From Streptomyces sp. V2I9 (GTDB lineage: Bacteria > Actinomycetota > Actinomycetes > Streptomycetales > Streptomycetaceae): 64,000 nucleotides of DNA. Location: NCBI RefSeq assembly GCF_030817475.1, contig NZ_JAUSZJ010000002.1, forward strand, positions 766,501-830,500, read 5' to 3'. The notes under the pieces were generated by a model. It was given only the letters and a program-made list of their open reading frames with translations. It had not been told where the DNA came from and did not search any database. The position numbers were made by a program, and so were the translations under genes. How positions within the stretch are numbered: the stretch's first letter is position 1; every line of letters starts with the position of its first letter. Positions 58,246 to 64,000 of this stretch are shown here, in pieces.

Positions 58246-59601
58246 TCACGGGGCCGGGGCAGGCCCCGTGACGGGACCGGGCTGTTCGGCCGGCTCCCGC
58301 ACGGTCCGCAGGACGGAGTCCGGGCCGACCGCCACGACCTCGCCGATCACGATCACGGCGGGCGGGCGCACGTCCTCGGCGGCCGCGCGCTCGCCGACGT
58401 CCGCGAGCGTCGCGTCGACCCGGCGCTGGGCGGCCGTGGTGCCCTCCTGGACGAGGGCGACCGGGGTGGCCGGGTCCTTGCCGTGGGTGATCAGGGCGGC
58501 GGCGATGGCGCCGATCTTGTCCACGGCCATCAGCAGGACGAGCGTGCCGCGCAGCCGGGCGATGGCCGCCCAGTCGACCAGCGAGCGGGGGTCCTCGGGG
58601 GCCACATGACCGCTGACCACCGTGAACTCGTGGGCCACGCCCCGGTGGGTGACGGGGATGCCCGCGGCGCCGGGGACGGAGATGGTGCTGGAGATGCCGG
58701 GGACGACCGTGCAGGGGATGCCCTCGGCGGCCAGCGCCTGGGCCTCCTCCATGCCCCGGCCGAAGACGAACGGGTCGCCCCCCTTGAGCCGGACCACGGA
58801 CTTGCCCGCCTTGGCGTGCTCGATCAGCGCCTGGTTGATCGCCTCCTGGGCCATGAACCGGCCGTACGGGATCTTCGCGGCGTCGATCACCTCGACGTGC
58901 GGCGGGAGTTCGTCCAGCAGGTCGCGGGGGCCGAGGCGGTCGGCGATGACGACGTCGGCCTCGGCGAGGAGGCGGCGGCCGCGCACGGTGATCAGGTCCG
59001 GGTCGCCGGGGCCGCCGCCGACCAGGGCCACGCCGGGGGCGCGGGTGCGATGGTGCGGGGCGGCGAGGGTGCCGTCGCGCAGGCCCTCGACGATGGCGTC
59101 GCGGATGGCGGCGGAGTGCCGGGGATCGCGGCCGCGGGGGGTGGTGTTGAGGACGGCCACGGTGATGTTCTCGCTCCGGCCGGTCGCGGGCGTCCAGGCG
59201 GTGGCGGCCTCGGCGTCGTCGGCCCGGACGCACCAGGTGCGGGTCCGCTCGGCCTCGGCGGACGCGGCGTCGTTGGCGGCGGTGTCGGAGGATGCGACCA
59301 GGGCGTACCAGGTGTCGGCGAGGTCGCCGTCCCGGTAGCGGCGGCGCTCCCAGCGGATCTCCCCGGCGTCCGCCATGGCCTCGACGGAGGGCGTCGCGGA
59401 CGGGGAGACGAGCGTGATGACGGCACCGGTGGCGATGAGCTGCGGCAGCCTGCGCTGGGCGACCTGGCCGCCGCCGACGACGACCACGCGGCGGCCGTGC
59501 AGGCGCAGTCCTACGGGGTACGCGGGGTGATCGGCCTGGTCGGTGCGGTCGGCTCGACCTGCGCTCTCGGCGTGACCTGCGTGGTCTGCGTGCTCGGCCA
59601 T
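58246..59601 (-). CDS. Uroporphyrinogen-III C-methyltransferase fused to an N-terminal CysG-type dehydrogenase domain
   Basis: A 451-aa two-part protein. The N-terminal about 165 residues have a dinucleotide loop (VVVVGGGQVAQRRLPQL) like the precorrin-2 dehydrogenase/ferrochelatase half of CysG. The C-terminal SUMT has VALVGGGPGDPDLITVRG, the KGGDPFVFGRG segment and VPGISS. It makes precorrin-2 and possibly sirohydrochlorin, for B12 and sirohaem. The His/Asp-rich leader MAEHADHAGH is unusual. ATG 59601. It lies just downstream of the BluB-CobT gene. Confidence 0.9.
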   Translation of the reverse strand: MAEHADHAGHAESAGRADRTDQADHPAYPVGLRLHGRRVVVVGGGQVAQRRLPQLIATGAVITLVSPSATPSVEAMADAGEIRWERRRYRDGDLADTWYALVASSDTAANDAASAEAERTRTWCVRADDAEAATAWTPATGRSENITVAVLNTTPRGRDPRHSAAIRDAIVEGLRDGTLAAPHHRTRAPGVALVGGGPGDPDLITVRGRRLLAEADVVIADRLGPRDLLDELPPHVEVIDAAKIPYGRFMAQEAINQALIEHAKAGKSVVRLKGGDPFVFGRGMEEAQALAAEGIPCTVVPGISSTISVPGAAGIPVTHRGVAHEFTVVSGHVAPEDPRSLVDWAAIARLRGTLVLLMAVDKIGAIAAALITHGKDPATPVALVQEGTTAAQRRVDATLADVGERAAAEDVRPPAVIVIGEVVAVGPDSVLRTVREPAEQPGPVTGPAPAP

Positions 59602-59943
59602 GGCGGTACGGGCTCCTCGTGCGGGTGCTGCGTAGGCCGCTGCGGCGGTGGAGCGGCTGTGACGTGCGGAAAGCGGGGGTTCCGGGTGGGGAACACGATA
59701 CGGGGTGGGGATGGGCGGGGATCGGGCGCGGGCCCGGTCGAGTTGCGTGGGCCCGGCGACGGGAGGGCAGCGTGCGTCCCGGCGCGGGGCGGGCGGTCCG
59801 GCGGCGTCTGCGGTGGACCCGTCCCCTGGCGACGCCCTTCTCGCCCTCCCCGTCCGTCCGAGCGGGGAGGGCTCCGCCCCGGGCCCCGCACCTCCGGCAC
59901 CGGAGTGGCCGGTCGGGGCGGGGCCGCGGGGCGGCGGACGGTG
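59602..59943. other. Intergenic region between BluB-CobT and the CysG-like gene
   Basis: 342 nt with no supported gene. A 10-bp inverted repeat GCCCTCCCCG/CGGGGAGGGC (59843-59852 and 59863-59872) could terminate the gene upstream. I looked for a cobalamin riboswitch (B12 box and neighbouring conserved blocks) and did not find one. Confidence 0.45.
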
Positions 59944-62900
59944 CTACTTCTCCGTCACGCCCGCGGAGTCGAACGTCGCCACCTCGTGCATCGCGCGGGC
60001 CGCGCTCTGCACGATCGGAAGCGCCAGCAGCGCCCCGGTGCCCTCGCCCAGGCGCAGGTCGAGGTCGACCAGCGGGCGCAGACCCAGCTTGTTGAGCGCG
60101 GCGACATGGCCGGGCTCGGCGCTGCGGTGCCCGGCGATGCAGGCGGCCAGCGCCTCGGGGGCGATGGCGCGGGCGACCAGGGCCGCCGCACCCGCGCTCA
60201 CTCCGTCCAGGATCACCGGCGTACGCAGGGAGGCCCCGCCGAGGAGGAAGCCGGCCATCGCCGCGTGCTCCAGGCCGCCGACCGCGGCGAGCACGCCGAT
60301 CGGGTCGGCCGGGTCCGGCTGGTGCAGGTCGAGGGCGCGGCGGACGACATCGACCTTGCGGGCGTGCATCTCGTCGTTGATGCCGGTCCCCCGGCCGGTC
60401 ACCTCGGAGGCGTCGGCCCCGGTGTACACGCAGATCAGCGCGGCCGACGCGGTGGTGTTGGCGATGCCCATCTCACCGGTCAGCAGGGCCTTGTTGCCCG
60501 CGGCCACGAGGTCGCGGGCGGTCTCGATGCCGACCTCGATCGCGGCGAGCACGTCTTCCCGGCTGAGCGCGGGGCCCGTCGTGAAGTCCGCCGTGCCGGG
60601 CCGCACCTTGCGGGGCAGCAGACCGGCGGTCGCGGGCAGCTCCGCCGCCACGCCGACGTCCACGACGCAGACCTCCGCGCCGACCTGGGCCGCGAAGGCG
60701 TTGCAGACGGCTCCGCCGCCGAGGAAGTTCGCCACCATCTGCGCGGTGACCTCCTGCGGCCACGCGGTGACCCCCTGGGCGTGCACCCCGTGGTCCCCGG
60801 CGAAGATCGCCACGGCCGCGGGCTCCGGGATCGGCGGCGGGCATGCCCGCGAGAGCCCGGAGAGCTGCGCGGAGATGATCTCCAGCATGCCGAGTGCCCC
60901 GGCGGGCTTCGTCATCCGTTTCTGGCGCTCCCACGCCTCCCCGAGCGCCTTGGCGTCCAGCGGCCGGATCGCGGCGATCGTCTCCTGGAGCAGGTCGTGC
61001 GGCTCGGCGCCGGGCAGCGCGCGACGGCCGTACGTCTCCTCGTGGACGACCCAGGACAGCGGACGGCGCTTGGACCAGCCCGCCTGCATCAGCTCGGGCT
61101 CCTCGGGGAACTCGTCGACGTACCCCACGCAGAGGTAGGCCACCACTTCGAGGTGCTCGGGCAGGCCCAGCGCGCGGACCATCTCCCGCTCGTCGAAGAA
61201 GCTGACCCAGCCGACGCCGAGGCCCTCGGCGCGGGCGGCGAGCCACAGGTTCTCGACGGCGAGGGCCGAGGAGTAGGGCGCCATCTGCGGTTGGGTGTGC
61301 CGGCCGAGGGTGTGGCGGCCGCCGCGGGTCGGGTCGGCGGTCACGACGATGTTGACCGGGGTGTCGAGGATCGCCTCGATCTTCAGTTCCTTGAACTGCT
61401 TCGCCCGGCCCTTGGGCAGCGACTTGGCATAGGCGTCGCGCTGCCTCTGGGCCAGTTCGTGCATGGAGCGACGGGTCTCCGCCGAGCGGATGACCACGAA
61501 GTCCCACGGCTGCGAGTGGCCGACGCTCGGCGCGGTGTGGGCCGCCTCCAGCACCCGCAGCAGCACCTCGTGCGGAATGGGGTCGCTGCGGAAGCCGTTG
61601 CGGATGTCCCGGCGCTCGCGCATGACCCGCAGCACGGCTTCGCGTTCGGCGTCGTCGTAGCCGGGGGCGGGCGGGGTGGCCGGTTCGGCGGACTCCTCGG
61701 GCGCCGGGGCGGCCTCGGGCTCGGGCTCGGCCGCCGGGTGCTCCGCCGCCTCGGGCCGCTGCGGGACCTCGACCGTCTGCGGGGCCTCGGCCCCGGCCTG
61801 CTGGTCGGCGGCCGGCGCCGACGGGTCGGCGGCCTGCGTCTGCCGGGTGGTCCCCAGCGGTTCCGGAAGCTCCGGCGTCTCGATGATCTCGGGGCCGGTG
61901 GCGTCCTCGTCGTCGGGCACGGCCGCCCGCACCGCCTCCACGGACTCGGAGGCAGGGGCCGGTGCGGCCTCCCGCTCCGGCACGGGGAGTTGCTGAGCCG
62001 CTGGGCTCCGGCGCGTCCCCTCCCGGCGCACCGTCCGCCACAGGCTCGGCGGCGGGCTCGGGCTGCGCGGTCCCGGTCCCGGCGGCGGGCTCGGGCTGCG
62101 CGGTCTCAGGGGCGGGCTGCGCTGCCAACGGCTCCGCCACAGCGGTCTCCGGAGCCACGACGGCCTCCGGGCTCTCGGCCGCCACCGTGTCCGGGGCCGG
62201 CTCGGCGGCCGGCTCCACGATCTCCGCCGTCGGCTCGGGGGCCACACCGGCGACCGTATCCGCGGGCTGCTCCTGGTCGGGCCGCACCAGAACCTCGGGC
62301 TCGGCCGGTACGGGCTCCGCCGCTGCCGGCGGCACCCGTACGGGCTCCACCGCTGCCGGTTCGCCGGCCACCGGGACCTGCGCCTCGGGCTGTGCGGCAG
62401 CCGCGTCCACCGGAACGGCCTCGGGTGCGGGCTGCGGGGGCGCGACGGCGTGCTCCGCCTGCAGCGGCTCCGGGGCGGCGGGCGTCTCGTCGGCCGGAGT
62501 CGGAACAGGCGCTTCCGCCGGGGTCTCCGGCTGAGCCGCCACGGCTTCCGGCAGGAGGACCGGCCCGGCGGGAGGCATCTGCGCGGCGGCCGGGTCCGGG
62601 ACGACCGTTTCTGCCGGAACGGCCTGCGGCGCGGGCTCGGGGTCCGCAGGAACGGCCTGCGGGGCGGGCTCGGGGTCCGCCGGAGCGGTCTGCGGGGCAG
62701 GCTCGGGCGAGCCCTCGCCGACGGGGTCCGGGGAGTGCGGCTGCGGCTCGTCCGCGACCGCCGGTTCCGGCTGTTCGGCCGGAGCCACCGCAGCCGCCGC
62801 GACGTGCCCGGCCACCGGCTCCGCCGGACGAGCCGGTGAAGCCTCCTGCGCCTCCGGTACGGCCTGTGCCTCCGGTACCTCGGGTACCTCGCGTGCGGCC

Positions 62901-63796
62901 TGAACCTCCGGTGCGGCCGGTGCTTCCTCGGCCGCCTGGACCGGCTGCTCGGCCTCGGCGGCCACCGGGGCCGCCGCCGCGGGCTCGGCCACGGGCTGCT
63001 CGGCCTCGACGCCCTGCTCCGGCTGCGGCGCCTCTTCGGCGGCGGGCTCGGCCACGGTCTGCACGGCGGCCACCGGCTCGGCGGCGGGCTGCTCCGGCTC
63101 CGCGACCGGCTGCGGGGACGCGGGCACCGCTTCCGGCTGCGGCGCCCCCCACGGGGCGCCGGCCTGCGGCGGGATCTCGCCCAGCTGCGGGCCGGGCAGG
63201 GTCGAGGGGTCCTCGGTCAGGGCGGCGGGGTGCTCCGGACCGCCGCTCGTCGGCGCGCCCGCGTGACGGGCCGGGGCGGCGGTGCGGGTCGCTCCGGCCG
63301 GGCCACGGTCGGCCAGCGAGCGGACGACACCGCCCTGCGTACCGCCTCCGTACGTCGGAGCCTCGGTGGCGGCCGGACCCCGGTGCAGGGGCCGGCGGGC
63401 GGGAGCGGCGGCGACATGGGTGCCGACCGGTGCGGGCGCGGGCGCCGGGATGCGTACGCCGTTGAGGTCCACGTGGCCGGAGTCGCGGCCGCCGGACTCG
63501 TGGGTGCCGTGCGGCTCGACGGGGGGCGGGGGCGCCTGGCCCTGCTGCGCGGGCGTCCGCTGCCGGCCGTGCTCGGGGGTGGGCTGCGCGGGCTGCGTCT
63601 GCGCGGGGGCCGGGGCGGCCTGCGGGTCGCTCCAGGCACCCTGGGAAGTGGGCATCAGCAGAAGGTCGTCGTCCTCGGGGGTGTGCTCGGAGGGGTCGAG
63701 GAAGGTGTACGCGTCCGGGGCGGGGACGCCCGGCTGCTCCACCATGCCTGCGTTCTCCGGCAGTCCCTCGGCCGGGACCTGGCCGGTGTCGGTCAT
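59944..63796 (-). CDS. cobT: BluB-CobT fusion with long Pro/Ala/Glu-rich N-terminus; interrupted by an apparent 1-nt frameshift
   Basis: Two overlapping frames form one gene. From ATG 63796 (MTDTGQVPAEGLPENAG) comes a roughly 700-residue disordered Pro/Ala/Glu/Val-rich region. At 61984-61987 the coding character passes to another frame. That frame encodes a BluB-type flavin-destructase nitroreductase domain (RRDIRNGFRSDPIPHEV, APSVGHSQPWDFVVI, NLWLAARAEGLGVGWVSFF). CobT follows (FAGDHGVHAQGVT, LTGEMGIANTTASAA), with the catalytic glutamate in RLGEGTGALLALP. BluB makes dimethylbenzimidazole and CobT activates it, so the fusion would channel the B12 lower ligand. Removing one G would restore a 1,283-aa frame. 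Read as written, the gene is broken or depends on +1 frameshifting. Confidence 0.85.
61984..61987 (-). other. Apparent frameshift site in the BluB-CobT gene (GGGG; CCCC on the coding strand)
   Basis: The upstream frame ends its native composition in Ser-Ala-Thr-Pro (codons TCA GCA ACT CCC). The downstream frame continues Val-Pro-Glu-Arg if one C of the CCCC run is skipped. Low-complexity residues lie on the native side of both frames, and Arg/Ser-rich shadow sequence on the other, so the change is localised to about this run. Confidence 0.75.
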
Positions 63797-63815
63797 GCGT
63801 ACCCCTCGCCCATCG

Positions 63816-63875
63816 TCAGTGCTCCTTCGGCCCTTCGTCCGGGACGCCGAACCACGGCATGCCGGTGCTCGTCAT
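63816..63875 (-). CDS. Possible 19-aa micro-ORF upstream of BluB-CobT
   Basis: ATG at 63875 opens MTSTGMPWFGVPDEGPKEH then TGA, ending 19 nt before the cobT ATG. The codon use is ordinary for this genome and the sequence is not low-complexity. No good ribosome site is seen. It could be a leader peptide or chance. Confidence 0.3.
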   Translation of the reverse strand: MTSTGMPWFGVPDEGPKEH

Positions 63876-64000
63876 CAAGAACGAGCGGGCTCGCCGCGCG
63901 GCACGAAACGCCCGCGCGGCTTCCTATTCTCGCGGCCGTTCGCCGCCGCGACAGGCAGTTCTGCCACGGCTCACTGTGGACTGCGCCACGTTGCGCGTCC

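Follow-up and report, generated by a model that had tools for sequence, protein, structure and literature searches.

A BluB-CobT fusion of Streptomyces with a long N-terminal tail, predicted to be disordered, that carries conserved motifs

Does this stretch of Streptomyces DNA encode the synthesis and the activation of the vitamin B12 lower ligand in one polypeptide, and what might be the role of the several hundred Pro/Ala/Glu-rich residues in front of the enzyme? The question is raised by positions 59944-63796 of the 64,000-nucleotide stretch analysed here (the window), in which every feature described below lies on the minus strand. In our reading, the locus is the Streptomyces form of a known BluB-CobT fusion, and we give this reading as a whole, with the mechanism, the docking role of the tail and the cause of the frame break proposed below, a probability of roughly 0.7.

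The fusion enzyme and its relatives

According to the list of open reading frames and the profile searches, the frame at 59944..62247 (767 aa) encodes BluB and then CobT, adjacent to each other and in a single frame. The BluB domain (5,6-dimethylbenzimidazole synthase; 61042..61659), which also matches PF00881 and aligns with the structure 2isj, scores 308.8 bits against TIGR02476 (cut-off 150) over residues 197-402, and the CobT domain (NaMN:DMB phosphoribosyltransferase; 59956..60957), which also matches PF02277, scores 413.6 bits against TIGR03160 (cut-off 319.3) over residues 431-764, with a short linker (60958..61041) between the two profile matches. Both domain matches are far above chance expectation. 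In the alignment with the BluB structure 2isj, residues D214 and S349 of this frame fall on D35 and S170 of the chain, positions that we take to be Asp32 and Ser167 of S. meliloti BluB. The Asp is kept in every one of 15 diverse fusions, as is the Glu of the CobT motif RLGEGTGA (15/15), which we presume to be the catalytic Glu, with the role of E317 of the Salmonella enzyme; this correspondence comes from counting along the aligned ranges, and E317A variants occur among the PDB titles. The Ser position holds S in only 8 of the 15, with T in 5, G in 1 and P in 1, which counts against our reading. The Gly is that of L053, a Streptomyces, and the Pro that of L094, and to judge from these substitutions the BluB activity of the two may differ from that of the others.

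When a structural model of a relative, L202, was compared with known structures by Foldseek, CobT and ArsAB structures ranked first and 2isj next, above all other listed nitroreductase-fold entries. An ordinary nitroreductase is thus ruled out by the TIGR02476 score, which is twice the cut-off, by the residue alignment with 2isj and by the Foldseek ranking. The fusion proposed by the first-pass annotation is likewise borne out, since both profiles exceed their curated cut-offs in one frame and the key residues are in place.

In the mechanism that we propose, the BluB domain would break reduced FMN down with O2 to give 5,6-dimethylbenzimidazole (DMB), and the CobT domain attached to it would use DMB and nicotinate mononucleotide to form alpha-ribazole phosphate, which is the lower ligand of vitamin B12 in its activated form. 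A fusion of the two domains would hold free DMB low, which would be useful because DMB, to our knowledge, serves this pathway alone and because it antagonises flavins. The antagonism is described for Salmonella in the part of the source available to us (PMC10468695). We infer both catalysis in the host organism and the direct hand-over of DMB envisaged by the first-pass annotation; by analogy, such hand-over would be in line with what the available part of a 2015 characterisation says of P. freudenreichii BluB/CobT2, which makes and activates DMB and is termed efficient in metabolite channelling (PMC4657239). The published activity of this homologue, in which BluB precedes CobT and a Pro-rich linker is present, as in the protein of the window, supports our reading, although at 626 aa it is without the long N-terminal tail (PMC4657239). 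The same source, as far as available, describes a fusion in S. griseus that is 34% identical to the P. freudenreichii protein over the shared part and has an additional N-terminal part, whose function was not known there; judged by this description rather than by its sequence, it is very likely the same protein as ours, and the available account makes no mention of tail disorder, motifs or a frame break. S. meliloti BluB (2isj), with which 216 residues could be aligned, key Asp and Ser in place, is a stand-alone enzyme, unlike the fusion of the window, and the CobT enzymes of Salmonella and Thermus (1jh8, 1wx1), which share fold and family with it, stand alone as well.

As a novelty the fusion does not hold, both because of the P. 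freudenreichii homologue (PMC4657239, available part) and because a strong match, with a best E-value of at most 5.3e-275, is present in 144 of 150 Streptomyces genomes, counting that of the window. Among these 144, the fusion of G119 is divided over different frames within CobT, and that of G027 is without its first 24 residues. The remaining genomes have weak matches only: G008, G050, G102, G135 and G139 are assemblies of at least 550 contigs, and G079 is a single contig with a completeness of 78%. Across the class, a match over both domains occurs in at least 59 of 296 genomes; among the class matches listed, 28 belong to the genus, 25 have 60-73% identity and 6 have 37-41%. The fusion gene has also been used to find B12 producers (PMC10038948, available part). 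The fusion is therefore of a known kind and ordinary for the genus, and its tail motifs and leader mini-ORF, described below, are the parts worth following.

The same genome holds a second, stand-alone CobT (L002, G000:C2:1492516-1493496; TIGR03160 336.3 bits against 319.3), and its two remaining nitroreductase-like matches are not BluB by profile. Next to the fusion lies a uroporphyrinogen-III methyltransferase, or CysG-like, gene (58246..59601; TIGR01469 276.7 bits, cut-off 185). In the available part of a study of S. coelicolor, cysG (SCO1553) and cobT (SCO1554) respond to oxidative stress with increases whose M values stay below the authors' main threshold (PMC4991794); from the matching neighbour pair, rather than from sequence, SCO1554 would be the orthologue of the fusion, while SCO1853, named in the part available of PMC6585502, is a different gene.

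The reading frame between tail and enzyme

At 3853 bases, which is no multiple of three, positions 59944-63796 must contain more than one reading frame. The frame that opens with the ATG at 63796 departs from the tail sense near 62000, crosses the enzyme out of frame and stops at 60473, and the resulting 1107-aa product matches neither Pfam nor NCBIfam at E-values up to 0.001. Alignment with three relatives (L034, L035 and L036) places about one extra base in the window at approximately 62001 (61998..62004), so that the Pro/Ala/Glu-rich tail occupies 62001..63796, its open frame formally continuing to 60473. Of the first-pass interpretation of the region, BluB and CobT stand, as does a Pro/Ala/Glu-rich stretch ahead of them, which measures some 600 codons from the ATG at 63796, but the single frame does not: as written, this assembly does not encode the tail and the enzyme as a single polypeptide.

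In counts that are not to be read as unbiased rates, because L082-L086 were chosen for their short-looking open frames and the two Streptomyces locus sets may overlap, tail and enzyme share one open frame in 75 of the 82 recognised-start loci of the first set (85 loci and the window, 86 in total; no start was recognised in L112, L134, L136 and L164) and in 24 of the 27 of the second (L171, L173 and L180 being without a recognised start). The exceptions in the first set are the window, L048, L082, L083, L084, L085 and L144, the last of which contains a run of N, and those in the second are L174, L184 and L187.

The region of the break has a GC content of about 80%, breaks recur there in several assemblies, and we moderately favour an assembly error in this stretch, which appears somewhat likelier than a true mutation. 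If the mutation were true and recent, the long frame would end at 60473, BluB would be absent or made weakly by initiation at internal GTG codons, and the strain would depend on the second CobT of its genome, a stand-alone enzyme, and on a base from outside or of another kind, an account that we regard as a real possibility at somewhat less than even odds. The presence of that second CobT in the genome speaks for it, as does the location of the break outside any long single-base run, whereas the enzyme frame remains intact past the break, with 100% to 97% identity to that of relatives, breaks are found here in L048, L082, L083, L084, L085, L174, L184 and L187 too, and L084 is broken at the enzyme start as well, as error-prone sequence would predict. 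Also in favour of a true mutation, no second convincing break was found within the 64-kb window relative to G066, in a comparison of 110 G066 frames (best match of at least 70% identity, antisense frames included) that is blind to genes without similarity, and this result weakens any account of the break as part of a general error. An error-prone assembly of the window as a whole was rejected, since the two apparent breaks relative to G066 lie behind stop codons, within intergenic DNA or next to it, and a general error rate therefore cannot be claimed. Programmed ribosomal frameshifting that would link tail to enzyme, for which the two differing frames of the window are the sole support, is almost certainly wrong and was rejected, because the relatives' tails are in frame with the enzyme in the 75/82 and 24/27 loci given above.

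The tail and its possible partners

Across the 75 intact loci of the first set the tail is 311-1023 aa long (median 699), and across the 24 of the second it is 509-1067 aa long; the conservation of tail length across streptomycetes that had been suggested as a check thus fails, lengths varying from 311 to 1067 aa. Past residue 80 the composition is dominated by A (24.6%), P (19.2%), E (11.1%) and V (9.1%). An AlphaFold model of the relative L202 (1079 aa; 35 sequences) has a mean pLDDT of 59.3, and residues 1-509 lie below 50 almost throughout, with helix and strand absent; in this monomer model the tail, with its pLDDT below 50, shows no confident structure or docking onto the enzyme, a result still compatible with docking, and it is accordingly predicted to be disordered. 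Up to an E-value of 1, the tail of the window has no Pfam domain, and its first 240 residues have no paralogue in the same genome; the tail of L034 gave one Pfam match below its cut-off, FAZ1_C (E 0.028).

Within this arm, a comparison of motifs among relatives identifies EDDDLLLMPTSQGAW (63632..63676), GTHESGGRDSGHVDLNGVRIP (63446..63508), RRPLHRGP (63374..63397) and GGVVRSLADRGPAG (63293..63334) downstream of a first motif, MTDTGQ..EGLPENAGMVEQPG (63728..63796), that is conserved at the nucleotide level too. MTDTG is present in 73 of the 75 loci, DDLLLMP in 70, GAW in 66, RRPLHxGP in 69 and VRSLADRGP in 65, with GRDxGxxDL (50), GPEYL (61) and ETVVP (43) as further motifs, and the first five recur in 24, 23, 19, 22 and 20 of the 24 second-set loci. 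Neither RRPLHxGP nor VRSLADRGP appeared in any of 15000 shuffled tails. Outside the genus, the tail of Kitasatospora L198 retains DDVLLMP, RRPLHAGPPIPD and VRSLADRGP, and that of Kitasatospora L189 has the same motif pieces spread over different frames. In 29 pairs without a common locus, not tree-corrected, dN/dS was 0.29 for codons 1-60, 0.32 for the codons that follow up to the SLADRG motif, 0.51 in the spacer and 0.044 in the enzyme.

Motifs that are kept genus-wide on an otherwise fast-changing arm, predicted to be disordered, point to a fixed binding partner. Most likely, on this pattern of conservation, they are putative docking sites that would dock the enzyme to a partner in trans, with the membrane-bound last steps of B12 assembly as a candidate, while the remainder of the tail would be a spacer of free length. 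The first-pass idea of a tether or spacer is thus retained for a part of the tail only: its length varies freely, as a spacer would allow, yet the conserved short motifs call for something more. Two observations weigh against docking. At about 0.3, dN/dS in the motif-bearing part greatly exceeds the 0.044 of the enzyme, and the fusions L092, L095, L096 and L101 begin directly at BluB, so that a tail is unnecessary for the fusion as such. These tail-less fusions, together with the composition past residue 80, the spread in length from 311 to 1067 aa and the spacer dN/dS of 0.51, would also suit a merely random, length-tolerant Pro/Ala/Glu arm without binding function; we consider this unlikely, given motifs in 65-73 of 75 loci, two of which were never reproduced by shuffling, and their presence in Kitasatospora.

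It is far less probable that the tail is a cargo-loading domain through which the enzyme would enter an encapsulin shell of Family 2. Disordered terminal regions are present in Family 2 cargo, for which the available part of one source gives a GPTGLGT-type motif in terpene cyclases and no known tag in other cargo (PMC8346489; Family 2 encapsulins are also treated in the available part of PMC12407261). An SrpI-like encapsulin (PF19307) is present in 59 of 61 Streptomyces genomes, the host's included, and in 0 of 14 controls, and the two genomes without it, G008 and G050, both fragmented assemblies, belong to the six that match the fusion only weakly. Yet GPTGLGT is absent from all 75 tails of the first set and all 24 of the second, RRPLHxGP, SLADRG and DDDLLLMP are found in no frame of five encapsulin neighbourhoods (19-20 kb, six frames), and the host's SrpI-like (Family 2) shell gene (G000:C2:4788807-4789508) does not adjoin the fusion at C2:826447 of G000.

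Other lineages have other sequence in front of BluB. Seven loci of another family (L087-L091, L093 and L094) and Nocardiopsis L194 have a different Pro-rich sequence, in which most of the Nocardiopsis and related tails show a GLLDGLPE-like motif, which resembles the EGLPENAG of Streptomyces, and several show NVIPFRG. In Kribbella (L243, just upstream of 4001) the match is confined to BluB; ahead of it, and in one open frame with it, lies extra sequence that likewise ends in a PAAPGY junction and presumably resembles a CbiG/CobE domain.

A leader mini-ORF at the start of the gene

Immediately upstream of the tail lies a six-codon mini-ORF, MGEGYA-stop (63793..63813; ATG GGC GAG GGG TAC GCA TGA), the TGA of which overlaps the main ATG as ATGA. 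It is preceded by a Shine-Dalgarno-like AAGGAG (63822..63827), and a conserved Shine-Dalgarno-like GAGGGG for the main start lies within it (63802..63807). In an alignment of 97 loci, in which identical start regions were counted once and L148 and L083 were omitted from 99 rows, the ATGA overlap is found in 86, the mini-ORF starting with ATG in 82, TTG in 2 and GTG in 2; in 8 loci the corresponding frame enters the main ORF (7 ATG, 1 ATC), and in 3 there is another stop. A Shine-Dalgarno-like 4-mer lies at most 20 bases upstream of the mini-ORF in 71 of the 97. The overlap of the mini-ORF stop with the main start suggests that the main gene may be translationally coupled to the mini-ORF.

In 78 loci, counting the window, conservation of the DNA extends from about -20 to +50 and takes in synonymous sites, and in the window this nucleotide-level conservation of the gene start across Streptomyces spans 63728-63817. 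The codon of A16 is GCA in 67 of 70 loci, that of G11 is GGA in 41, GGG in 27, GGT in 5 and GGC in none of 73, and dS is 0.17 for codons 1-60 compared to 0.29 in the enzyme. With up to 3 mismatches allowed, a 23-base block of the start region has a single occurrence in the genome. A start-region hairpin was considered and rejected: 94.3% of cells pair, a share no higher than that of shuffles, only 54 of 97 loci hold it in the minimum-energy fold of 130 bases, and the pairs found by RNAalifold differ, none of them covarying. No Rfam element, such as a cobalamin riboswitch, was matched up to an E-value of 1 in window positions 59000-64000, nor at the gathering score in 10 loci.

In a search of freely accessible literature, the tail motifs and the leader mini-ORF were apparently undescribed. 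We tentatively propose, at odds well short of even, that the tail is a conserved docking hub tying lower-ligand synthesis to a physical B12-assembly complex, with translation coupled to the six-codon leader ORF. The fixed partner, if true, would provide a handle on the organisation of the last B12 steps in Streptomyces, and the mini-ORF would offer a testable point of control in a B12 gene for which Rfam gave no riboswitch match here.
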